In this document: positions 1,528 to 22,134 of the stretch, in pieces
Layout: every line of letters starts with the position of its first letter
Numbering within the stretch: the first letter of the stretch is position 1
Origin: a virus
Virus record (IMG/VR): IMGVR_UViG_3300049783_001206
Span: 1 to 23,487 of that record
DNA length: 23,487 nt
Reading direction: 5' to 3' (one strand)
The notes under the pieces: generated by a model
Seen by the model: only the letters and a program-made list of their open reading frames with translations
What the model was told of the DNA's origin: nothing
Database searches by the model: none
Program-made: the position numbers and the translations under genes

Positions 1528-2439
1528 ATGGCTATTTCACGCGCACAACTAGCTAAAGAGCTAGAACCAGGCCTCAACGCGCTTTTTGGTATGGAGTACA
1601 ATAAGTACGAAAACCAGCACGCTGAGATCTTCACCACTGAATCTTCGGACCGCGCGTTCGAGGAAGAAGTTATGTTGTCCGGGTTTGGATCAGCACCTAC
1701 AAAGTCTGAAGGTTCTGCAATCAACTTCGACGACGCTAACGAAGCATACACTGCTCGTTACAACCACGAAACCATTGCGCTTGCGTTCTCAATCACTGAG
1801 GAAGCAATCGAGGACAACTTGTACGACCGCCTCGGCAGCCGTTACACACGCGCCCTCGCCCGCTCAATGGCTCACACCAAGCAGGTTAAAGCTGCGTCTG
1901 TGCTGAACAACGCATTCGCTGCCGGCCCCACTGCTGGCGGTGACGGTGTTGCTCTTTGCTCCACTGACCACCCGCTCACAAACGGTGGAACTTTTGCCAA
2001 CACTCCAGCAGTAGCTGCTGATTTGAACGAAACTTCCTTGGAAGACGCTCTGATCAACATCGCTGGTTTCGTTGACGAACGTGGTCTGAAAGTCGCATTG
2101 CGCGGCATGAAGCTGCTCATCCCACGCCAACTGCAGTTCATCGCAGAGCGTCTGATGGTTTCCAACCTGCGTGTTGGTACAGCGGACAACGACACGAACG
2201 CTATCCGTTCGATGGGCATGTTGCCTGATGGTTACGCCGTCAACGACTTCCTCACCGACCCTGATGCGTTCTTCATCAAAACAGACGCGCCTCGCGGCTT
2301 CGTCCATTTTGAGCGTTCCGCGCTTTCCACCAACATGGAAGGTGACTTCGACACCGGCAACATGCGCTTCAAGGCGCGTGAGCGTTACAGCTTCGGCTTT
2401 AGCGACCCGCGCACAGTGTACGCTTCGCCGGGGGCATAA
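1528..2439 (+). CDS. Major capsid protein, Mu gpT-like (HK97 fold)
   Basis: At 303 residues the length is right for a Mu gpT-type major head subunit without a delta domain. The start at 1528 is fixed by a strong AAGGAGGT Shine-Dalgarno at 1513-1520, the strongest in the region, fitting a protein made in hundreds of copies. Features of the family visible here are the N-terminal helical arm (residues 5-40), the E-loop-like acidic segment, a long spine-helix region (about 90-135: TEEAIEDNLYDRLGSRYTRA and following), the central CSTDHPLTNGGTFAN segment, and LLIPRQLQFIAERLM in the A-domain. It would assemble with the scaffold-like protein into the procapsid. A rho-independent terminator follows 23 bp after its stop codon. 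The fold assignment is by recognition of the family, not computed. Confidence 0.85.
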   Translation: MAISRAQLAKELEPGLNALFGMEYNKYENQHAEIFTTESSDRAFEEEVMLSGFGSAPTKSEGSAINFDDANEAYTARYNHETIALAFSITEEAIEDNLYDRLGSRYTRALARSMAHTKQVKAASVLNNAFAAGPTAGGDGVALCSTDHPLTNGGTFANTPAVAADLNETSLEDALINIAGFVDERGLKVALRGMKLLIPRQLQFIAERLMVSNLRVGTADNDTNAIRSMGMLPDGYAVNDFLTDPDAFFIKTDAPRGFVHFERSALSTNMEGDFDTGNMRFKARERYSFGFSDPRTVYASPGA

Positions 2440-6505: not shown

Positions 6506-8110
6506 ATGGTCACTCTCGTAAACAGAGCTAAGGTAGGTACTGCTACTACAGGCACAGGTACAGTCACACTTGGTTCTGCGGAGGATGGCTACCAGACCCT
6601 TGCCGATGCCGGTGTCGTAGATGCTAATGTAGTTCGCTATGTTATCGAAGATGGGAGTGACTTTGAGATTGGCACAGGGGTGTACACTGCCTCCGGTACA
6701 ACTCTCTCCCGTACAGTGACTGAAAGCAGCAACGCTGGATCAGCTCTTAACCTGTCAGGAAATGCTGCTGTCTTCGTCGGTGCTACAGCCGAGGACCTAG
6801 GTACAACTTGGATCCGTAAGACTACGACATACACAGCAGCAGCAAACGACGCTGTTATCGCTGATACTTCTGGCGGCGTGTGGACATTAACGCTCCCCGC
6901 CAGTCCTGCGTCAGGTGCTTACATCCGGATACTGGACGGAGCTGACTGGGCAACAAACAACCTTACTGTATCCCGCAACGGGCAAACGATTGATGGCGTT
7001 GCTGCAGACCTGGTTGTTAACATAGGCAATATCTCCATTGACCTGGTGTTCGATGGTACAACCTGGCAAGTGACCGCTCAATTTGGTGGTCAGGGTGGAG
7101 ACTCTGTAACACTGACCGGGACACAGACACTGACGAATAAGACAGTCGCTCTTGGGTCAAATACTATCTCAGGCACTACAGCAGAGTTCAACACGGCTTT
7201 GACAGACGGCAGTTTTTCTACACTGGCTGGGACAGAGACACTGACGAACAAGACAGTCGCCCTTGGGTCAAACACTGTTTCAGGCACTACAGCAGAGTTC
7301 AACACGGCTTTGACAGACGGCAGTTTTTCTACACTGGCTGGTACAGAGACACTGACGAATAAGACGCTTACATCCCCGACATTCGATGGCACCCCCTTAG
7401 CCCCGACCGCAACCGTTGGCACAGACACGACGCAGGTTGCCACAACGGCCTTTGTGCTGGCTAATGGCTCTGCGGGTGTAGGGTCTGACGTTCAAACTTT
7501 CACATCGTCAGGCACATGGACAAAACCTGCTGGGATTACGTGGGTTTTGGTTGAGGCAGTGGGCGGCGGGGCGGGGGGTCCGAACACAACGGGAAGTGGT
7601 AATTTTGGCGGCGGCGGAGGTGGGGCAGGTGTGCAAATTTTACTGTTGGCGTCTACTCTAGCGGCTACAGAGACAGTTACAATCGGCGCGGGAGGTGTGG
7701 GTATTGCCAATGGGGTTCTTGGATTTACTGGCAACCCTGGGGGCGACACCACATTAGGATCACAAGTCACTGCGCGTGGTGGTGCTGGCGGCACTTCAAG
7801 CCAGGGAGGTTTAGCTGGCGGCGGCGAAAGTCCCAACGATGTCGGCACCCCTAGCGGAGGAGGTTATTCTTCAGGTGCGGGAGGTGCGGGAAGTGGCACG
7901 GGTGGCTCGTGTGTTCTTGGCGGTGCTGGCGGCGGTGGTGGCAGTGCGGGCGGGGTTTCGGAATATGGTGGCAACGGAGGTGCGGGAAGTTATTCTTCCG
8001 GCGTGGCTGGCAGCAATGGTTCGGTTCCGGGCGGCGGCGGCGGTGCTTCAACAGGTAATGGCGGCGGTGGCAGTGGTGGAAATGGCAGAATGGTGGTTAA
8101 ATCATGGTAA
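6506..8110 (+). CDS. Tail fibre / receptor-binding adhesin 1 with glycine-rich tip
   Basis: The product is 534 residues in four parts. Residues 1-98 are a fibre N-terminal domain ([20 protein letters not shown] is a common phage-fibre signature) that probably anchors to the tail. Residues about 105-200 form a beta-rich domain. Residues 209-287 hold two complete 37-residue repeats and the start of a third ([13 protein letters not shown]-type). From residue 300 comes a module shared with the second adhesin, starting [20 protein letters not shown], and then a Gly-rich domain (about 325-534) with many GGG runs, ending MVVKSW. Such Gly-rich domains, as in S16-type gp38 adhesins, fold as polyglycine-II sandwiches and display variable receptor-binding loops. 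The last seven bases overlap the chaperone-like gene. Confidence 0.8.
7130..7365 (+). repeat. 111-bp tandem repeat inside adhesin 1
   Basis: Two full 111-bp units (7130-7240 and 7241-7351) and the first bases of a third (from 7352) lie head to tail with only scattered substitutions. Each unit encodes 37 residues, so copy number changes would keep the frame and only lengthen or shorten the fibre shaft. Confidence 0.9.
7403..7558 (+). repeat. 156-bp dispersed repeat, copy 1 (adhesin 1)
   Basis: This block encodes the 52-residue segment from [11 protein letters not shown] to WVLVEA and is matched by 8836-8991 in the second adhesin at the same length without gaps. The encoded residues differ at only one position (Val/Ile) and the DNA contains a 29-base exact run (from ACATCGTCAGG through AAAACCTGC), so it can serve as a recombination substrate. 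Confidence 0.9.
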
Positions 8111-8661: not shown

Positions 8662-9567
8662 ATGGCTAATCTAACAGACATTATCACCCCTTCTGGTCTA
8701 GCAACAGCAGCACAGGGCGGTAAAGCAGACACTGCCCTGCAAAATGGTTCACTGTATGCAACAGCAGCACAGGGCACGCTTGCGGCCAATGCCGCGCCCT
8801 TGGCGTCACCAACATTCACAGGCACGCCAGCCGCACCAACGGCGACCGTTGGCACAGATACAACGCAGATAGCTACGACGGCCTTTGTACTGGCTAACGG
8901 CAGCGCAGGCGTGGGGTCTGACGTCCAAACCTTTACATCGTCAGGCACATGGACAAAACCTGCGGGGATTACGTGGGTTTTGGTTGAAGCCAATGCTGGT
9001 GGCGGTGGCGGCGGAAATGCGACCGGCGGCACCGACGCTGGCGGGGGAACTGGCGGCGAAGGTATCTGTAAGCTCTTTCTCGCCTCTGACCTTTCGGCTA
9101 CTGAGACGGTAACGATTGGCGCGGGTGGGGCGGGCGGCGACAACAGCGTTACAGAGGGCGGAGCGGCGGGCGGCGACACTTCCTTTGGATCACTTCTAAC
9201 GGCAGCGGGCGGTCCAGAGGGCCTTGGTAGCAATTCTCAAACGCAATTGCCGCGATCTGTTCAAGGCGGCCAGTCTTACACCAACACAAGGGTAGTCCTA
9301 AACATGCTGGTTTTTCCTCAAGCTGGTTACGGCAACGGATCAAGTGCTGCTGGTGGAGCAACTATACACGGCGGCGGCGGCGGTGGTGGTGCAAGGAACG
9401 GTGCGGGCGGTGTCTCTGAGTTTGGCGGCAACGGTGGCGCGGGTATTTTCGCGACATCAACAAAAGGGGAAGATGGAATAGCCCCCAGCGGCGGCGGCGG
9501 CGGCTCAGTAAATGATGGGGGCGGCGGCGATGGAGCAGAAGGCAGAATTGTGGTGAAATCATGGTAA
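8662..9567 (+). CDS. Adhesin 2, glycine-rich receptor-binding protein without the anchor domain
   Basis: The 301-residue product starts after a clear AGGAG site. It lacks the fibre N-terminal domain and 37-residue repeats of adhesin 1; instead it has a short helical-looking lead (GGKADTALQNGSLYATAAQG, a motif seen in other fibres) and then, from residue 59, the module shared with adhesin 1, followed by a Gly-rich tip (about 110-301) ending IVVKSW. The tip shares framework with adhesin 1 ([24 protein letters not shown]) but differs in the intervening loops, including a unique non-Gly insertion (about 200-225). This suggests a second receptor specificity or an alternative tip. It overlaps its chaperone-like gene by 7 bp, exactly as adhesin 1 does. 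Confidence 0.75.
   Translation: MANLTDIITPSGLATAAQGGKADTALQNGSLYATAAQGTLAANAAPLASPTFTGTPAAPTATVGTDTTQIATTAFVLANGSAGVGSDVQTFTSSGTWTKPAGITWVLVEANAGGGGGGNATGGTDAGGGTGGEGICKLFLASDLSATETVTIGAGGAGGDNSVTEGGAAGGDTSFGSLLTAAGGPEGLGSNSQTQLPRSVQGGQSYTNTRVVLNMLVFPQAGYGNGSSAAGGATIHGGGGGGGARNGAGGVSEFGGNGGAGIFATSTKGEDGIAPSGGGGGSVNDGGGGDGAEGRIVVKSW
8836..8991 (+). repeat. 156-bp dispersed repeat, copy 2 (adhesin 2)
   Basis: The counterpart of 7403-7558, about 1.43 kb downstream in the same orientation and the same reading frame relative to the encoded protein. Recombination between the two copies would fuse the adhesin 1 N-terminus to the adhesin 2 tip in frame and delete chaperone 1. Confidence 0.9.
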
Positions 9568-14193: not shown

Positions 14194-14828
14194 GTATAGG
14201 TAGCTTACTCGGCGGACTGGCCGCTAACTTCCTCTTTCCCGGAGCTGGGTTTCTGGCAACAGGTCTCGGCTCCCTCGCTGGAGGGGTTTTGGAAGAAAAG
14301 CTGTTTGACGACGACGACGCCCCTGATCTGACCGCCGAAAAGACGGCTAAGTTTAACGAGGGCCCTAGCCAAGAAGAAGGCTGGGACGACAACCTGTTCA
14401 AGTCTCGGTACACGGACCCCTCCACTGGAGAAGCACCTGCGTTTAGCACCCCAGAAGAACGAGATGCGTACGACAGGCAGTACATGGCGTCCCGTGCCCA
14501 ACAACAGACAGTTAGCCCTGTGTACAAGGGGATGGCAAGCGGCGGACTGGCGCAGTTCGCAGGCGGGGGCTTGATCCAAGGACCGGGCACCGTGACCAGC
14601 GATTCTATTCCGGGGCAAATCATGCAAAATGGTCGCCCTGTTGAGCAGATCGCAGTCGGAAACGGGGAAGTAATTCTTTCGGGGAAAGACCTCGCGAACA
14701 TGGATCCTAACGGAGATATGAAGCGGGCAGGTATGCGCCTTGGTGGCGCAGCAAATGGAACTCGAGGTGCTGAAGCTGCTAGAATGTTTGCTGAAGCTGG
14801 AAACATGAAAGGCCGTCACAATGGCTGA
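14190..14828 (+). CDS. Probable small ejection protein with N-terminal glycine zipper
   Basis: The 212-residue product begins with a hydrophobic glycine-rich helix (residues about 4-35: SLLGGLAANFLFPGAGFLAT and following), of a type seen in phage ejection proteins that insert into membranes. A hydrophilic, acidic linker follows, then a conserved-looking C-terminal domain (about 115-205) with MASGGLAQFAGGGLIQGPGT, DSIPGQIMQNGRPVEQIAVG and GEVILSGKDLANMDPNG. I know this GPGT-SDSIP-GEVILS domain from other phages, where it also appears in large internal proteins. Its place before two larger ejection-type genes suggests an analogue of P22 gp7. The assignment is an inference. Confidence 0.6.
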   Translation: MSIGSLLGGLAANFLFPGAGFLATGLGSLAGGVLEEKLFDDDDAPDLTAEKTAKFNEGPSQEEGWDDNLFKSRYTDPSTGEAPAFSTPEERDAYDRQYMASRAQQQTVSPVYKGMASGGLAQFAGGGLIQGPGTVTSDSIPGQIMQNGRPVEQIAVGNGEVILSGKDLANMDPNGDMKRAGMRLGGAANGTRGAEAARMFAEAGNMKGRHNG

Positions 14829-15822
14829 GGCAGTAACATCCACATCGATTGCCGACCTGCCGGAGTGGCAGAAGGCGTACATGAAAGAGATCCTTGACAG
14901 GTCTCAAGCTCTCGGAAAACAGAACTATACCCTGCCCGAATACAATGTTGCGCAAAGAACACCTTTGCAGCAACAAGCTACCGAGTTGGCCCAGCAGGGT
15001 GTCGGGTCGTATGCTCCGATGCTTCAGGCTGGCGCGGCCAGCTTGGGGACAGGCATTGAGAGTGCGCAAGCGGGGTTGAACCCTTTGGCGGCGTCGATTA
15101 CTTCCGCGAGCCAGATTGGTCAGCAGACTGCAGACAACATACTAAACCCAAACGCCGCTCAAGCATACATGAACCCGTATGAACAGGCTGTAATCGATCA
15201 GTCTATGGCGGACATCCAACGTCAAAGCGACATCCAACAGCGGGGCCTTGCTGCTCAAGCTGTGGGCTCAGGCGCCTTTGGAGGGTCTCGTCAAGGGATC
15301 CAAGCGGCAGAGCAACAGCGCAATACTCTTGACACACAGGCACGCACCGCAGCAAATCTGCGTCAAACTGGGTACAACCAAGCGCAACAACAGCAGCTGT
15401 CTCGGGCGCAGGCCGCAGGTCAAGCGGGTTTTGCGGGCGCAGACCTAATGCAGACTGGCGCAGCCCAGTACGGACAGCTCGGTCAGGGGATCGGCAGTTT
15501 GGGTATGCAGCAAGCTAAATTGGGCGAGGCGTACCAAGGTCTGAACCTGAACGACATCAATACTCTGGGGAGTTTCGGCGGGCAAGAACAGCAGCAGCGT
15601 CAAGCAGAGTTCGATGCGCAGCGCCAGACGGAATACCAGAATGTTATGCAGCCATATCAACAGCTTGGCTTCTACTCCGATATTTTCCAAGGGATGCCGA
15701 CGTCTCAGTCTACGTTCACATCTCAGCAGCAGCCTAGTGCAAGCCCGATATCGCAGTTTGCAGGATTGGCTGGGGGTCTATACAGTCTGGGTCAAACAGG
15801 CATGTTCGGCGGAGGCGGCTAA
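14821..15822 (+). CDS. Glutamine-rich ejection (internal virion) protein
   Basis: The 333-residue protein overlaps the previous gene by 8 bp. It is dominated by Gln and Ala, nearly all predicted helical, with few hydrophobic segments apart from a Gly-rich end (SPISQFAGLAGGLYSLGQTG). A segment at about 115-165, AYMNPYEQAVIDQSMADIQR then AVGSGAFGGSRQGIQAAEQQ, is typical of a family of phage internal or DNA-ejection proteins I recognise from marine podoviruses. The probable role is to form part of the periplasmic conduit with the two larger proteins downstream, as do P22 gp7/gp20/gp16 or T7 gp14/15/16. No lytic motif is seen. Confidence 0.65.
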   Translation: MAEAVTSTSIADLPEWQKAYMKEILDRSQALGKQNYTLPEYNVAQRTPLQQQATELAQQGVGSYAPMLQAGAASLGTGIESAQAGLNPLAASITSASQIGQQTADNILNPNAAQAYMNPYEQAVIDQSMADIQRQSDIQQRGLAAQAVGSGAFGGSRQGIQAAEQQRNTLDTQARTAANLRQTGYNQAQQQQLSRAQAAGQAGFAGADLMQTGAAQYGQLGQGIGSLGMQQAKLGEAYQGLNLNDINTLGSFGGQEQQQRQAEFDAQRQTEYQNVMQPYQQLGFYSDIFQGMPTSQSTFTSQQQPSASPISQFAGLAGGLYSLGQTGMFGGGG

Positions 15823-15823
15823 T

Positions 15824-17992
15824 ATGAGTGCTATGAATCGGAAGATGTTCGTTAACCGAGATGCTCGTAACAAGCTGGCAGGTATGGGCGGGATTCTTTC
15901 CTCGTCCTCCGAACTGATGGGCGCGACTCAGCGGTTTGAGCCCGGTGGCGTCGTCAATGCCGGTGAGGGTCTCACCCCTATTGCTACAGTCGGCAACCGC
16001 AGTTTCTTCTTGACTCAAGATGGCCGCTCCATTGTTGACGGCGAAGGCCGCGCGGTCCGTGATCCAAGCGTCTTGAGGGCGATAATGCAGCAGGATCAGG
16101 GGGCCACGGCTCCTACGGCCGAAGAGGAGCTGTTTGATAGCCGACGTGCAGGTGTCATGGCGGCTGCGCAACCCCAGCTTCCTCCGGAACCTCGCCCAAC
16201 ATACCAAACACCGGAGCTGTCTGGGCTTGAGAGTTTTGCACAGTCTCAACCAGTCAGCGAAGAAGTTTCGAACCAGATGCGTGTCCTCGACATGGCTAAA
16301 GCGGGTGCGTCCATCAATCAGATGGCGCAGACCACAGGTGTTGCCATTGCGGATATTGCAAACATTATCGCAGGATCTGCGTCCCTCTTGGTAACTGAGG
16401 GCGCGGCACTGGCTGCCGACGTTGCAGGTTTGGTTTCAGGTGGAGGAGATGTCAGCAAGTTTGCTTTTGAAGGCGCCCAAGATCTCAGAGACTTTGGGAG
16501 AAACACCTACATCCCGGACACTAACTCCGGTAACTTGGATGACTATGCTCCCCGTCTGTTCATGCCCAAAGAAGAGGCTCCTGAAGTAGATCGGTTGGCT
16601 CAGATCGAGGCGGACTCTCTTCGCAACATCGGTGCTGGAGACGAGGCGTTGTTTGCAGAGGGAGCTCCGGTAGAGCAGCTCGGCGACAACTTCCCCTCGT
16701 CAATCATAGAAGCCCGTAACACGGGCGCACCTCAGATCCCAGACTTTGACTCTGAGCTTGCGTCGTCTCAGATCTTGGGGAGCCAGCGATCTAGCTTCGA
16801 GGCCCCAGAGGGCGGGACGTCGCCGGACGTCGCCGGACGACCAGCTATGCCCGGACGAATGGACGTCAGCACTGGCGTCCCAATGACCATGGATGAAATT
16901 CAGTCGAGCACTTTGAGGGAGCGAGAAGACGCTGCAAACCGAGGGCTGGGTGTCCCCACGGAACAAGAGGATCGTTTCCCGCAAGAGGATCAGCGCCTTG
17001 CCGAGCAAGAAGCGCAGATGGCTAACATTTCCAACATACGCCGCTCGGCCCAAGAGCGCATGCAGATGACAATGCCAGAAGCCGCTGTCACCCCTGCCCC
17101 CGAAGCCGCTGTCACTCCTGCCCCCGAAGACGGGGGGTTCACACCACGCTTCCCCGGCGATGTCCCCGAAGCGGCGGAATTACAGCGCAGAGTGGAGGAG
17201 GCCGAGGCTTCAACCGCCGTGACCCCAGCCCCACCCGCCGCAGACGCGGCCCCACCCGCCGCAGACGCGGCCCCACCCGCCGCAGACGTGGCCCCACCCG
17301 CAATGAATATCGATACCGCGGAACTGAGCTATAACATAGACATGGACCCAGCAAACGCGGGCTTCACGGCTTCCACCGCGATCCTCGGTTCTGCAGGCGT
17401 TGACACATCCGGCATGGGGATCGAAGAGCGCACAGTTGCGATGAGGGACATGTTGGATGGTCTTATGGGCCAAACCGACGCGCAGGAAAAAGAAGAGTTC
17501 TGGATGAACATGGCGATGGTTGGTTTCGGAATTGCTGCAGGGGAAAGCTCTAACGCAATGAAGAACATCGCCGACGGTCTGCTTGCGGGAACTGCGCAGA
17601 TCAGCAAGGGCAACGCGGCCAAGAGTGAGCGGAACGACAGGTTCACTCTTACTGCTTTCGGAGAAGTTTTGGCGGACCAACGGGCGCAGGAGAAGTTCGA
17701 TCGCGATGTAACCTTGGCTGGGATACGGTCCAGTGGTTCTGGCAGCATTTACGGCGATCGCAAAGATCCGTTGACCGCAGTGTATCAGCTCGCGCAAACC
17801 ATGTTTGCCGCGGGGGAGTACGACACTCTCGCGGATGCTATAGCCGCCGCAAAGATTCAAGTCTATGGGGACTATGGCATAACCGAGCCTCCGGGCGGCG
17901 GCAGCGGCAGCGGTGGCGGCGAAGATATGGTCACCATAGAGCAGGGCGGCCAACGTATACAGATTCCTAGAAGTCAACTTCCCGGGAATTAA
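15824..17992 (+). CDS. Large internal virion / ejection protein
   Basis: The 722-residue start at 15824 has GGAGG at 15811-15815; an in-frame ATG at 15614 would overlap the preceding gene by over 200 bp and gives a very different composition, so I reject it. The product has an N-terminal basic region (MNRKMFVNRDARNKLAGMGG), an Ala-rich helical and partly hydrophobic segment (about 165-210, IADIANIIAGSASLLVTEGA), a long acidic disordered middle with short repeats (EAAVTPAP twice, APPAADA three times), and a C-terminal helical domain (about 560-640: EKEEFWMNMAMVGFGIAAGE, DGLLAGTAQISKGNAAKSER) typical of internal virion proteins of marine phages, then a Gly/Ser-rich tail. It probably joins the DNA-ejection machinery. 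Not seen: a lysozyme or transglycosylase motif. Confidence 0.65.
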   Translation: MSAMNRKMFVNRDARNKLAGMGGILSSSSELMGATQRFEPGGVVNAGEGLTPIATVGNRSFFLTQDGRSIVDGEGRAVRDPSVLRAIMQQDQGATAPTAEEELFDSRRAGVMAAAQPQLPPEPRPTYQTPELSGLESFAQSQPVSEEVSNQMRVLDMAKAGASINQMAQTTGVAIADIANIIAGSASLLVTEGAALAADVAGLVSGGGDVSKFAFEGAQDLRDFGRNTYIPDTNSGNLDDYAPRLFMPKEEAPEVDRLAQIEADSLRNIGAGDEALFAEGAPVEQLGDNFPSSIIEARNTGAPQIPDFDSELASSQILGSQRSSFEAPEGGTSPDVAGRPAMPGRMDVSTGVPMTMDEIQSSTLREREDAANRGLGVPTEQEDRFPQEDQRLAEQEAQMANISNIRRSAQERMQMTMPEAAVTPAPEAAVTPAPEDGGFTPRFPGDVPEAAELQRRVEEAEASTAVTPAPPAADAAPPAADAAPPAADVAPPAMNIDTAELSYNIDMDPANAGFTASTAILGSAGVDTSGMGIEERTVAMRDMLDGLMGQTDAQEKEEFWMNMAMVGFGIAAGESSNAMKNIADGLLAGTAQISKGNAAKSERNDRFTLTAFGEVLADQRAQEKFDRDVTLAGIRSSGSGSIYGDRKDPLTAVYQLAQTMFAAGEYDTLADAIAAAKIQVYGDYGITEPPGGGSGSGGGEDMVTIEQGGQRIQIPRSQLPGN
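16816..16839 (+). repeat. 10-bp tandem repeat (2.4 copies)
   Basis: The unit GACGTCGCCG occurs at 16816-16825 and 16826-16835 and is followed by GACG. Ten is not a multiple of three, so the two copies are read in different frames and a change of copy number would shift the frame of the ejection protein. Confidence 0.85.
17078..17302 (+). repeat. Short in-frame tandem repeats (24-bp and 21-bp)
   Basis: A 24-bp unit encoding EAAVTPAP occurs at 17078-17101 and 17102-17125, and a 21-bp unit encoding APPAADA occurs at 17228-17248, 17249-17269 and 17270-17290 with a partial copy to 17302. All are multiples of three and lie in a Pro/Ala-rich linker, as expected of slippage that only alters linker length. 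Confidence 0.9.
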
Positions 17993-18015: not shown

Positions 18016-21000
18016 ATGGCGGAGTTTGACCCCACCCAACCGTTCAATGTCGTGGAGCCCGAGCCCGTTGCATTTGACCCCACCCAACCGTTCAATGTCG
18101 TGGGCGAGGAACCTGAGACCGACCAAACGGTACTTGGCTCCGTGGCCCGAGGAGCGGGGGCCGGGGTGGTCGATTTTGTTCAAGGTTTCGGCGAGCTTGG
18201 GGCCATGGGCCTCGAGGCGACGGGTGTTGTAGGCGATGGCTCCCAAGAGGCGACAACTAGGTTCTTCGAAAACAGCAAGGATTTCTTGGGGTTTACCCCT
18301 GAGAGAACGGCAGGCAAAGTTATCGAGCAGGTCGTGAACTATGGTTCAGCGATGATACCTGTCCTCGGCTGGGTAAGCAAAGCAAGTCGGGTGGGCACAG
18401 CAGTGAAGGCGGGATTAGCCCTTCCTGCTGCACGCACGTGGTTTGGCAGGTCGGCGGTCACGTTTGGCAAGAGAAGCTCGCTGCCTGCAACCCGCACCGG
18501 ACGTGCCGCATTGACTACCGCAGGCACAGGCGTCGCCGACTTCCTAGTTTCCCCAAGCACAAACACATCTTTGGCCGACAGCTGGGATGCTATGCCGGAG
18601 CAGTTGCGTACAGAGGACGAAGAAGGTCTGACAGGGATGGCCTTGTCCGCAGTGCGCCTTCGCAACAAATTCCGACTTGGCCTTGAAGGTGCGATGTTCA
18701 ACGCTGCAGGGGAGATACTTCTTCCCGTTGTTGGCGGTGTCGTTCGGAGCGCGGCCATGGTTCCTGGGGTTCCGGCCACAGCCAGAGCCCTGTCAAAAGG
18801 ATTGAATTTTTTAGGCGACAAAGCAACAAGCGTGCCTTTCATCCGCAGGCGCCTGACGCCCAACGGGTTTACTCCTGCTGAAGTCGCGGATGCTGTTCGG
18901 ACAGGTCAAGCTGTTGGTGAAACAGAGCAGGGGATTGCCTCGGGCCTCGTCTCGAACTTCGACAGCGCAGTAAAGAAGGCTGTTCGCGCACAGGGTCTGC
19001 GGCGTGGCGCAAAAAAGGCTGCTGTGCAACGGGCCCACAATGACTCGTTTGATTACCTGACAGGGTCCATTCAACGGAGTGACTTTGTCAGCGGGTACGG
19101 GGAAAATGCGGCCAAAGCCGCCGACGCCATGCGGATGCAAGTCGATGACCTGAGCACAAACTTCAGGTCTTCGATCGATTCAGCTCCAAACCTAGATGCC
19201 ACCGCGAAGGCGACGTTAAAAGCCCAGTTTGACGAGAACCAAGGCTCGTACATTCGCCGGATATACGAACTTCACACAAAACCTGAGAACTTCCAAACCC
19301 CTGTCTCCCAGTTGCCTCAATACAAAGGGGCGGTGGACCAAGTCAGTTCCTATTTGATGAAGAAAGACCCTTTGATGGCGGCCGATCCGACCGCCGCGGC
19401 TCAAAAAGCGGGGCAGGAAATCGACAGGCTCTTCAACCAGACCCTCAACGCCACGGGACTAAGCCCCGAGGCACGCGCTAGTGCAGCAAAGTTTGCTGGC
19501 GGGCGGGGCGCAGCGACAGAAAAAGGTCGTGCGTCTCTGTTCAATCTGTCGAAAGGTATGCTCGAGTCTCGCAGCGAAATGCTCACCCAAGCGCCGATGC
19601 TTCGCGAGATGATGGGCGAGATCCGTGAGCCAAAGGAGGCCTTCCTGCGGACCATTGACAATCTGTCCTCCACCATGGCGGGTCAAAGATTGTTCGACAC
19701 CGTGTCTGGCGGGATTGAAGCGGGTAAGTTTGTCCCTAGAAACGCCAAGCCACTGGCGCAGGCTGTTTCAGAGATGAACAACGGTGCTCGGCCCTTGGTC
19801 ATCGACGGGACAAATCTCACACCCAACCAAGTGGACGACCTGACTGGGGTTCTGAATTACGTTAAAGCGGGGGAGATTGACATGGACAACCCGTTCGGCG
19901 GTACTTTCGGATCTCTCTCGGGCAACTACGTCCCTGTTGAAGTTTACGACTCTCTGACAACTCCGATCCGTGCGTACTCTGGGGCCCAAGACGCCTTAGC
20001 TGTGTCCCTGCAGTTGAAGGGTGTGTCTCAGATGTCCAAGACAGTCCTGAACCCGCTGTCTCAGGTCCGGAACTTTATCTCCAACACGTTTGTTGTAGGA
20101 GCCAACGGGCTTCTTGGCAGAAACATGGGGATTTTGGAGAGCGCAGAGGTCTTGCTGGCCAACGCACTTGACAGCCCGCAGCAATACAAACTCCTGCGGG
20201 CAATGTCGGATGAGGGCGCGATCGGCCAGAACATTCAGGTCAACGAGCTCGCCCGTCTGATGAAGGAACAAGTGGAGGGCGGCGTGTCCGCTCGTTTGCG
20301 TCAGGCCGGAGAGACGTTCAGTGACTCCAAGCTCGGCGCTCCTGTCCGCTTCATGCAGAAGACATACAAATTAGGTGATGATTACTGGAAAGTCGTCGGC
20401 GCTCTTGGTGAAAAGGCTCGCTACGGAGCAGCAATGCGTAAGGGTGGCCTTGACATAGAGAACCTCAACTCTGCTGTGCAGGATGCGCTCACTCGATCTG
20501 GATTGGCGCAGCGGTCGTCGTCCATTGCGAACACAGACTTTGGCAACATGTTCGTCACGGACATCGTTCGTCAGACCATGCCTACATACTCCATGGTCCC
20601 CGACGCTATCAAACAGCTCCGCCGGATTCCGGTCATCGGTAACTTCATGGCGTTCCCTGCGGAGATCATCCGTACGTCGGGCAACATCGTAAGTCGATCG
20701 CTCAAAGAAATGGGTTTCCAAGCAACCGACGATCTGGTCGCGGCCATGGGCAAGCAACAGGCTGATATATTTGCTCGGGAAGTTCGAGCCATTGGCGCTC
20801 AACGGCTGTCTGGGTACATCGCAATGGCGGGCGCGGCACCTATCGCGTTCAAGACCGCGGCACACGACATGCTTGGCGTCACCGAAGCCGAGGAAAAGGT
20901 TCTGCAATCGGGCGCCGCTCCTTGGACCAAGGGCAACACTCTTGTGTATATGACCCGCCCAGACGAAGAGGGCCAAGCCGAATACATCGATCTGTCGTAC

Positions 21001-22134
21001 ATGCTGCCCTATGAGTTCATGCTCACTCCGGCCCGCGCTGCGAGACAGGAGTATAATGAAAAAGGGTCTGTCGACGCAGGTTTTGCAGAGCAGGTCGTCT
21101 CTGCAGCATGGGAAGGGTTTAAGAAGTTTGCTGAACCGTTCGCATCGGAGGCCATGGCCGCGGAAAGAGTCATCGACGTGACCACACGTCAGGGCAGGAC
21201 ACAGACAGGTGCTGACATCTACAAACCTGTCGACAATCTAGGCGACAAGTTGTCCCAGTCTTTGACCCACGTTGTTGGAGCGTTCCTTCCAGGCATCGTT
21301 GATCAGGTAGTGACTGTTAAGAGTGGCGAGTTTGTGGAAGGCCGCACGCTTCGCTCCATCACAGGAGCACCGTCTTCGCAGGGTGACGAGTACCGCCCGT
21401 TTGAAGAAGCGGGAACCATGCTCACAGGTCTTCGGGCATTGAGGCTGAACATACCCCGCAGCCTTAGCTACGCGGGATCTGAGTATTCGGCCCTTCGAAC
21501 CAGTGCTTCATCTATCTTCACGGGTCTAGCGGATGACAACGACGCAACCGAAGCGGATGTTCTCGACGCATATGTCCGAGGGAACGATGCCCGCCGTCGC
21601 CAGCAGGCTGTGTTGAAGTCTAGGATTGACGCAGCTCTGGCGGCGGGCATGAGCCGCCGAGAGGTCTACAGAGCGTTTGATAGATCAGGTGTTTCCAAGA
21701 CGGAACTCGGCAACATAATGCGCAACAATTATATTCCGCTGCCTGTAAGCCAAGCATTGATCCGTGAGGTCAACATGGAAGCTAGAGATGAGGCCCGAAT
21801 CCTGCAGCGTCTTCCTATGCGGGAGCTTAACAGTATCCGCCGCTCGTTGATGCGTACGGAGATTGTTCCCACGGGAGATGCCGAAGAGACACCTATGTTT
21901 GACCCCACCCAACCGTTCAATGTCGTGGAGCCCGCGCCACGTCCACAGGCCTCATCACCACAACCCGCAGCACCACAACCCGCAGCGGCCCCGTCATTCG
22001 TTGAACGAGCCGCATCTACAGCCAGTGGTGGCGCCGGCAGCCTGCTTGACCGTGCTCGGTCCTTGGCCCCCGGTCTTTTAGGGGACCGGAGAAACCAAGA
22101 GATTATCGATCGGGCAAACCAGCCGCCTCAGTGA
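18016..22134 (+). CDS. Giant ejection / internal virion protein with terminal FDPTQPFNVV motifs
   Basis: The 1,372-residue protein starts after AACAGGAG. Residues 4-14 and 20-29 carry the motif FDPTQPFNVV(E), and the same motif appears at 1295-1305, just before a Pro/Gln/Ala-rich tail. Between lie a Gly/Ala-rich region (about 45-160) and hydrophobic segments (GEILLPVVGGVVRSAAMVPG; SGYIAMAGAAPIAFKTAAHD near 930-955) plus long helical parts, for example KTVLNPLSQVRNFISNTFVV, KLGDDYWKVVGALGEKARYG and MPTYSMVPDAIKQLRRIPVI. This size and layout match the largest internal protein of podoviruses (the position of P22 gp16 or T7 gp16), which is ejected before the genome. No lysozyme catalytic motif was recognised. 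The end overlaps the convergent gene by 7 bp. Confidence 0.65.
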   Translation: MAEFDPTQPFNVVEPEPVAFDPTQPFNVVGEEPETDQTVLGSVARGAGAGVVDFVQGFGELGAMGLEATGVVGDGSQEATTRFFENSKDFLGFTPERTAGKVIEQVVNYGSAMIPVLGWVSKASRVGTAVKAGLALPAARTWFGRSAVTFGKRSSLPATRTGRAALTTAGTGVADFLVSPSTNTSLADSWDAMPEQLRTEDEEGLTGMALSAVRLRNKFRLGLEGAMFNAAGEILLPVVGGVVRSAAMVPGVPATARALSKGLNFLGDKATSVPFIRRRLTPNGFTPAEVADAVRTGQAVGETEQGIASGLVSNFDSAVKKAVRAQGLRRGAKKAAVQRAHNDSFDYLTGSIQRSDFVSGYGENAAKAADAMRMQVDDLSTNFRSSIDSAPNLDATAKATLKAQFDENQGSYIRRIYELHTKPENFQTPVSQLPQYKGAVDQVSSYLMKKDPLMAADPTAAAQKAGQEIDRLFNQTLNATGLSPEARASAAKFAGGRGAATEKGRASLFNLSKGMLESRSEMLTQAPMLREMMGEIREPKEAFLRTIDNLSSTMAGQRLFDTVSGGIEAGKFVPRNAKPLAQAVSEMNNGARPLVIDGTNLTPNQVDDLTGVLNYVKAGEIDMDNPFGGTFGSLSGNYVPVEVYDSLTTPIRAYSGAQDALAVSLQLKGVSQMSKTVLNPLSQVRNFISNTFVVGANGLLGRNMGILESAEVLLANALDSPQQYKLLRAMSDEGAIGQNIQVNELARLMKEQVEGGVSARLRQAGETFSDSKLGAPVRFMQKTYKLGDDYWKVVGALGEKARYGAAMRKGGLDIENLNSAVQDALTRSGLAQRSSSIANTDFGNMFVTDIVRQTMPTYSMVPDAIKQLRRIPVIGNFMAFPAEIIRTSGNIVSRSLKEMGFQATDDLVAAMGKQQADIFAREVRAIGAQRLSGYIAMAGAAPIAFKTAAHDMLGVTEAEEKVLQSGAAPWTKGNTLVYMTRPDEEGQAEYIDLSYMLPYEFMLTPARAARQEYNEKGSVDAGFAEQVVSAAWEGFKKFAEPFASEAMAAERVIDVTTRQGRTQTGADIYKPVDNLGDKLSQSLTHVVGAFLPGIVDQVVTVKSGEFVEGRTLRSITGAPSSQGDEYRPFEEAGTMLTGLRALRLNIPRSLSYAGSEYSALRTSASSIFTGLADDNDATEADVLDAYVRGNDARRRQQAVLKSRIDAALAAGMSRREVYRAFDRSGVSKTELGNIMRNNYIPLPVSQALIREVNMEARDEARILQRLPMRELNSIRRSLMRTEIVPTGDAEETPMFDPTQPFNVVEPAPRPQASSPQPAAPQPAAAPSFVERAASTASGGAGSLLDRARSLAPGLLGDRRNQEIIDRANQPPQ
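18025..18061 (+). repeat. FDPTQPFNVV DNA repeat, copy 1
   Basis: A 37-bp block beginning TTTGACCCCACCC that is identical, base for base, to 21898-21934 near the other end of the same gene. The identity covers synonymous third positions. Confidence 0.95.
18073..18103 (+). repeat. FDPTQPFNVV DNA repeat, copy 2
   Basis: The first 31 bases of the block repeated 48 bp downstream of copy 1, in frame, with identical bases, then diverging (GGCGAGG instead of GAGCCCG). Confidence 0.95.
21898..21934 (+). repeat. FDPTQPFNVV DNA repeat, copy 3
   Basis: The copy near the 3' end of the gene, 3,873 bp (1,291 codons) after copy 1. Its codons read MFDPTQPFNVVEPAP and lead directly into the Pro/Gln/Ala-rich tail. 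Confidence 0.95.

Follow-up and report, generated by a model that had tools for sequence, protein, structure and literature searches.

We examined a 23.5-kb uncultivated phage fragment from IMG/VR (record IMGVR_UViG_3300049783_001206, positions 1 to 23,487; hereafter the window) in which the gene for a giant virion-type protein carries the peptide FDPTQPFNVV twice near its start and once near its end. We consider it likely that these peptides are short linear docking tags recognised by a small C-terminal element – hereafter the dock – of the protein encoded upstream, nearly always by the immediately preceding gene, and that tags and docks form orthogonal classes. Tags and docks co-vary and are replaced together, tag placement is conserved among relatives, and class-specific pairing recurs in unrelated phages. 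The parts of the window that matter for this argument, all on the + strand, are:

15830..17992, dock-bearing upstream gene, about 720 amino acids (start inferred from relatives beginning MSVMNRK)
17921..17989, dock, C-terminal EDMVTIEQGGQRIQIPRSQLPGN, class FDP (Q-N/G-G type)
18016..22134, tagged protein, 1372 amino acids, large virion/internal-protein type (phrog_22602, virion structural protein)
18025..18054, N-terminal tag 1, FDPTQPFNVV, residues 4–13
18073..18102, N-terminal tag 2, FDPTQPFNVV, residues 20–29
21898..21927, C-terminal tag, FDPTQPFNVV, residues 1295–1304
21897..21938, near-identical 42-nt copy of 18024–18065 (C-terminal tag versus N-terminal tag 1)
14821..15822, DNA-ejection-like protein preceding the dock gene (phrog_4287, E 1e-8)
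1528..2439, capsid protein

The identical FDPTQPFNVV blocks at both ends of this 4.1-kb gene, which a preliminary description of the window had singled out, are present, and their DNA is identical. TTTGACCCCACCCAACCGTTCAATGTCGT occurs exactly three times in the 23.5-kb record, always within the 18016–22134 open reading frame (ORF). The three copies share identical DNA over 30 nt, with nine of the nine compared codons the same, and the first and last copies agree over 42 nt with one mismatch (longest unbroken run, 38 nt). No other direct repeat in this region does better than 75–80% over 20–29 nt, which excludes a chance origin of the tag repeat. The C-terminal tag lies in a Pro/Ala-rich stretch about 70 residues from the protein end, a place that relatives keep; the phrog_22602 profile match covers residues 632–1011 of the protein body (E 1.9e-20).

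We collected 69 IMG/VR loci encoding homologues of the tagged protein (52–82% identity). Nearly all of those with covered ends have two (sometimes three) short repeats within the ~45 N-terminal residues, and a further one or two ~50–110 residues ahead of the C-terminus, set in Pro/Ala-rich or acidic linkers. The peptide varies between phages – FDPTKPFTIV, LFGVAADE, MFGAPV, FVPIPV, YIPPEPLGPV, NPFLAL, GLFDDLL and QAPWET all occur – and both ends agree within one phage. We grouped these tags into seven family classes: FDPTQPF, LFGVA, FVPIPV, PEPLGPV, NPFLAL, GLFDDL and QAPWET. The same tag was not found in any other ORF of these contigs, which are partial genomes, and the distant annotated relatives HTVC027P and 023Pt_psg01 have no evident tags. 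Relatives of the tagged protein were not found in sequenced cellular genomes.

The perfect identity of the 30-bp copies in the window would fit selection or recombination acting on the DNA itself, as a recombination site or packaging signal. This alternative is ruled out for practical purposes by the relatives, nearly all of which show synonymous codon differences between copies of the same peptide; other phages, moreover, fill these positions with entirely different sequences. In FDP-tagged family members, 2–4 synonymous changes separate the N- and C-terminal tags, and some relatives have identical N-terminal tags 1 and 2. Because synonymous codons differ between copies, it is the peptide that is maintained. 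Selection on the nucleotide sequence, one of the options raised in the preliminary description, therefore falls away, and its suggestion of recent duplication or gene conversion gains support for the window itself, where the 42-nt identity between the first and last copies points to recent local copying or homogenisation. It had also named divergence at third codon positions together with random placement as arguing against a functional motif; third positions do diverge, and placement is conserved, not random. Local copying offers a plausible route for bringing a C-terminal tag into line with a newly acquired N-terminal one.

Wherever family contigs reach far enough, the ORF directly upstream of the tagged gene is an orthologue of the dock gene. 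The N-terminus of its product is conserved with the backbone, and its middle is long, variable and Ala/Pro-rich; the window's ~720-residue protein has no family match. In the window, tandem PPAADAAPPAADAAPPAADVAPPA and EAAVTPAPEAAVTPAPE repeats lie in this variable middle, at about 17200–17560. The last ~25–40 residues form the dock and change along with tag class:

tag FDP, dock ending ...VVQNGKTIEVPxSQI
tag PEPLGPV, dock ending ...EAKAAGKTEYNYNGQRYPVQ
tag FVPIPV, dock ending ...AAKAAGQTQYVGPDGNNYKVQ
tags LFGVA/MFGAP, dock ending ...TQAEYDALPSGTEFIQN
tag NPFLAL, dock ending ...VSDEKIKSQLIEAGHDPKTYG
tag GLFDDL, dock ending ...PELKSVMLTRLRNEGYDTKGLE
tag QAPWET, dock ending ...GNSYKFPDGTYKFLGG

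Tag and dock class are concordant in 28 of 28 distinct family pairs (24 by regular expression, four FVP pairs by eye). One locus (L033) has the backbone of an FDP phage, yet carries FVPILA tags and a YTGPDGxxYKVQ dock, which otherwise accompanies FVP tags on a window-like backbone. Consistent with a specific link, tag and dock similarity gave a partial correlation of 0.75 with body similarity controlled for (0/5000 permutations), and tag and body similarity one of 0.007 with the dock controlled for. When the window was left out of the family dock profile, the window dock was still the profile's best match in the six-frame translated window, at residues 788–811 of an 813-amino acid open frame (independent E-value, iE, 0.026). 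The preliminary description had offered a docking signal for portal or scaffold: the docking tag is supported, with the C-terminus of the upstream gene product as its partner instead. In several loci (L019, L030, L071 and others) the stop of the dock gene overlaps the start of the tagged gene (TAATG), which suggests translational coupling of both partners.

Tag class does not follow the phylogeny of the tagged protein, with 14 changes on a tree of 27 bodies and 7 classes; the window's closest relatives carry LFGVA and FVPIPV tags, and FDP tags reappear on distant backbones. We aligned six pairs of relatives with near-identical bodies and different tag classes and found them to differ mainly in two blocks, one spanning the last ~200–390 nt of the dock gene and running ~110 nt into the tagged gene, the other ~60–400 nt surrounding the C-terminal tag. 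The ~3.5 kb separating the blocks is mostly 95–100% identical in all six pairs, with one additional short gap in L022/L030. Small divergent patches also precede the C-terminal tag, and upstream portions of the variable dock protein differ as well.

Dock and N-terminal tags adjoin and are replaced as one block, and they could co-vary merely as neighbours swapped in a single recombination event, without any interaction. We regard this as very unlikely, and reject hitch-hiking of adjacent sequence because of the C-terminal tag: it lies 3.5 kb away and switches to the same class across mostly unchanged DNA. Unless C-terminal tag and dock are functionally coupled, it is hard to see why two separate replacements should be of the same class when the DNA between them is retained. 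Hitch-hiking is also at odds with the unrelated phages described below, in which the same tag on unrelated proteins goes with the same dock class and pairing is kept despite an extra ORF (L170) or non-adjacent docks (L381, L489).

Co-variation could in principle also be forced on both elements by a single third partner – the tags being head-targeting or prohead-protease sites for capsid, scaffold or protease, and the dock C-terminus a matching signal for the same protein. T4- and P1-type phages are reported to have capsid targeting sequences (PMC9026906, PMC9024508). We nevertheless consider this reading unlikely. In a gene-by-gene test of 15 comparisons, which did not cover the portal and protease of relatives, strong co-variation with the tag was seen for the dock alone (0.73). 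The next value was 0.31, and adaptors, structural proteins, ejection protein, polymerase and the N-terminal 200 residues of the dock protein ranged from -0.09 to 0.31, the dock protein's own N-terminus giving -0.02. The capsid protein is 87–95% identical across tag classes and is not ordered by class; the FDP-tagged window shares 95% capsid identity with an LFGVA phage and 89% with an FDP phage. Docks are, in addition, predicted to fold as mini-domains, unlike tags, and reading the tags as processing sites does not predict a co-varying dock. The capsid was separately considered as the tag receptor and rejected, as it does not follow tag class.

Family relatives are not independent of each other, and tests of dock–tag pairing in unrelated phages do not rest on them. 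A discovery scan for FDPxxPF (a DNA pattern, two peptides) returned 58 IMG/VR stretches, in which Q[NGD][GKR]..[YFIW] occurs within the last 45 residues of 39 of 45 usable upstream ORFs, compared with 2 of 257 other ORFs. The FDP dock expression was drawn from these data, and a further scan, using the alternative Phe codon, served as a held-out test: a QNG-type dock was present in 30/36 upstream ORFs and 0/243 others (p = 1e-34), and the misses were mostly near variants such as QGEKIY or QKGVTY. ORFs upstream of NPFDQFD tags end in A(I/V)xxLxxNPxLxxxFDxKYGxGAAxxxLG; an expression taken from the discovery set recovered 61/63 held-out cases and 1/490 other ORFs (p = 9e-78). We then ran profiles trained on discovery docks against held-out loci (51 FDP, 76 NPF). 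The FDP profile matched 40 of the 51 FDP loci and none of the 76 NPF loci, the NPF profile 74 of 76 and none of 51, with one match per locus and all but one per set lying ≤25 residues from the C-terminus. Apparent exceptions in L374, L381, L438 and L489 carry the dock elsewhere in the locus, on a different ORF, and pairing is intact in L170, where a 251-amino acid ORF, possibly a homing endonuclease, intervenes between dock and tag genes.

The FDP and NPFDQFD classes alone account for about two hundred phage loci in the IMG/VR scans, most with unrelated tagged proteins. Many unrelated phages thus appear, from these sequence patterns, to share a lock-and-key code joining particle-borne proteins. 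Bradyrhizobium phage ppBjS10J-1 (OP596615.1, genes WAX24468/WAX24467) is a named example of the pairing, and NPFDQFD pairs also occur in contigs of Asaia and Methylobacterium genomes, presumably as prophages. Four discovery loci (L352, L353, L367 and L372) combine NPFDEF[KR] tags with an ALxPGTxFIDPxG dock, unlike the helical NPFDQFD dock, and one dock type appears to be reused for different tags. In Pseudomonas phage PA8 (L137), an ALPKGTQY-type, PF24243-like dock adjoins an 11.3-kb gene whose product starts with WGENDKIV and FGANDEVV; a C-terminal tag copy was not found in this giant protein. Short-peptide tblastn searches against named phages were mostly without success. A weak match of the LFGVA dock in Cronobacter JC01 lies inside a small non-structural gene and was set aside as chance.

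Annotations give an impression of what the partners do. Unrelated tagged proteins match PHROGs for internal virion proteins, internal proteins with an endolysin domain, endolysin, DarB-like antirestriction, DNA ejection and virion structural proteins. Among the dock carriers of 48 unrelated loci, 4 match DNA ejection protein phrog_4287, the PHROG of the window's 14821–15822 protein, and single ones match endolysin, transglycosylase, tail fibre or virion proteins; most match nothing. The natural reading of these annotations is capture of one internal protein by another that is of the ejection type. Dock and tag frames are often in phase across one stop, and by reading the stop as glycine we modelled both as one AlphaFold chain. 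The FDP dock (L149) was predicted as a three-stranded meander (predicted local distance difference test, pLDDT, about 88) and the NPF dock as a three-helix mini-domain (pLDDT about 82); Foldseek searches with both AlphaFold models returned no significant match. Together these observations suggest a model in which the upstream protein ends in a mini-domain that would recognise the tag peptides. Two N-terminal tags and one C-terminal tag would let the upstream ejection-type protein capture the giant protein, probably with avidity, and capture would most likely serve joint assembly of the two into the head, or joint action on ejection. On a change of class, dock, N-terminal tags and C-terminal tag would all be replaced, and the remainder of the protein would stay.

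Several observations weigh against this docking model. The window dock is divergent, and the general FDP profile misses it at iE 0.01. Three loci (L142, L164, L235) carry FDP tags with no dock recognised, and L488 is an unexplained exception to pairing. A preset FDDL expression failed in unrelated phages, catching 1 of 7, and was too narrow; upstream C-termini in the unrelated GLFDDL phages L258, L263 and L306 read by eye like ARLxxxGxDxxGL, so that pairing in this class is a matter of inspection. Tag confidence in the dock–tag chains was about 55–74, and the modelling output, which carried no contact information, speaks neither for nor against docking. We infer both physical dock–tag binding, from sequence, and the reason for class switching, and homology is what suggests the virion location of the partners. 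One family locus (L006) has N-terminal tags and dock of the LFGVA class and a C-terminal end reading QVGLFSKITSP, like L050 and L057; it may have arisen by mismatched recombination or chimeric assembly, or may represent a further class. Metagenomic contigs may be chimeric.

Docking domains of nonribosomal peptide synthetases and polyketide synthases include a beta-hairpin docking domain that pairs with a short linear motif (reviewed in PMC9113145). As in those systems, small matched pieces sit at the C-terminus of one protein and a terminus of the next, in several orthogonal and swappable classes; judging by co-variation, the terminal elements of consecutive proteins appear matched here too. 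The phage pairs differ in joining virion proteins instead of assembly-line enzymes and in having multi-copy tags at both ends. Pfam scans gave no homology to a known docking-domain family, and a TubC_N match in one upstream protein of 48 (E 0.017) was taken as chance. Encapsulin cargo-loading peptides are short, often repeated, lie in a disordered tail and recruit cargo into an HK97-type shell. The phage tags are likewise short and repeated; the encapsulin shell is itself the receptor, whereas here the dock is a separate protein and the capsid – an indirect test, at 87–95% identity unordered by class – does not follow tag class. T4 and P1 capsid targeting sequences are also short signals that bring internal proteins into heads. 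They are N-terminal and cleaved, and we know of no neighbouring protein that ends in a matched dock for them; the phage tags have a C-terminal copy that is conserved in relatives. The LFGVA-class dock resembles Pfam PF24243, Phage_tail_C ('phage tail tip domain'; E 3.5e-4), falling short of membership at 20.3 bits against a cut-off of 23.7, and the window dock has no match. Podovirus ejection proteins (T7 gp14/15/16, P22 gp7/16/20; PMC8954989) are alike in the probable role of both partners and in mosaic evolution, and a keyword search of that review showed no tag/dock code. In the open-access literature we found no paper tying PF24243 to a partner peptide and no description of the tag strings or of ejection-protein motifs of this kind.

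Little is understood about the way in which phages select ejection proteins and injected effectors for their heads. We would give an even chance to the broader proposal that a peptide code, orthogonal, recombinable and made up of at least eight tag/dock classes, operates across tailed phages and decides which internal proteins are loaded and injected together. A protein that gained a tag could then become new cargo, and a change of class may spare coinfecting relatives from cross-loading. With a readable tag/dock rule, sequence alone would be enough to predict which uncharacterised phage proteins are carried together and by which partner they are held. Such a rule would also account for concerted hypervariability at protein ends and supply ready-made orthogonal peptide/dock pairs.

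The window also encodes two SU10-type adaptors and a family A DNA polymerase. Two fibre-like proteins (6506–8110 and 8662–9567), apparently paralogous, share a long module (beginning VGTDTTQ[VI]) followed by Gly-rich tails, and most relatives are without them.

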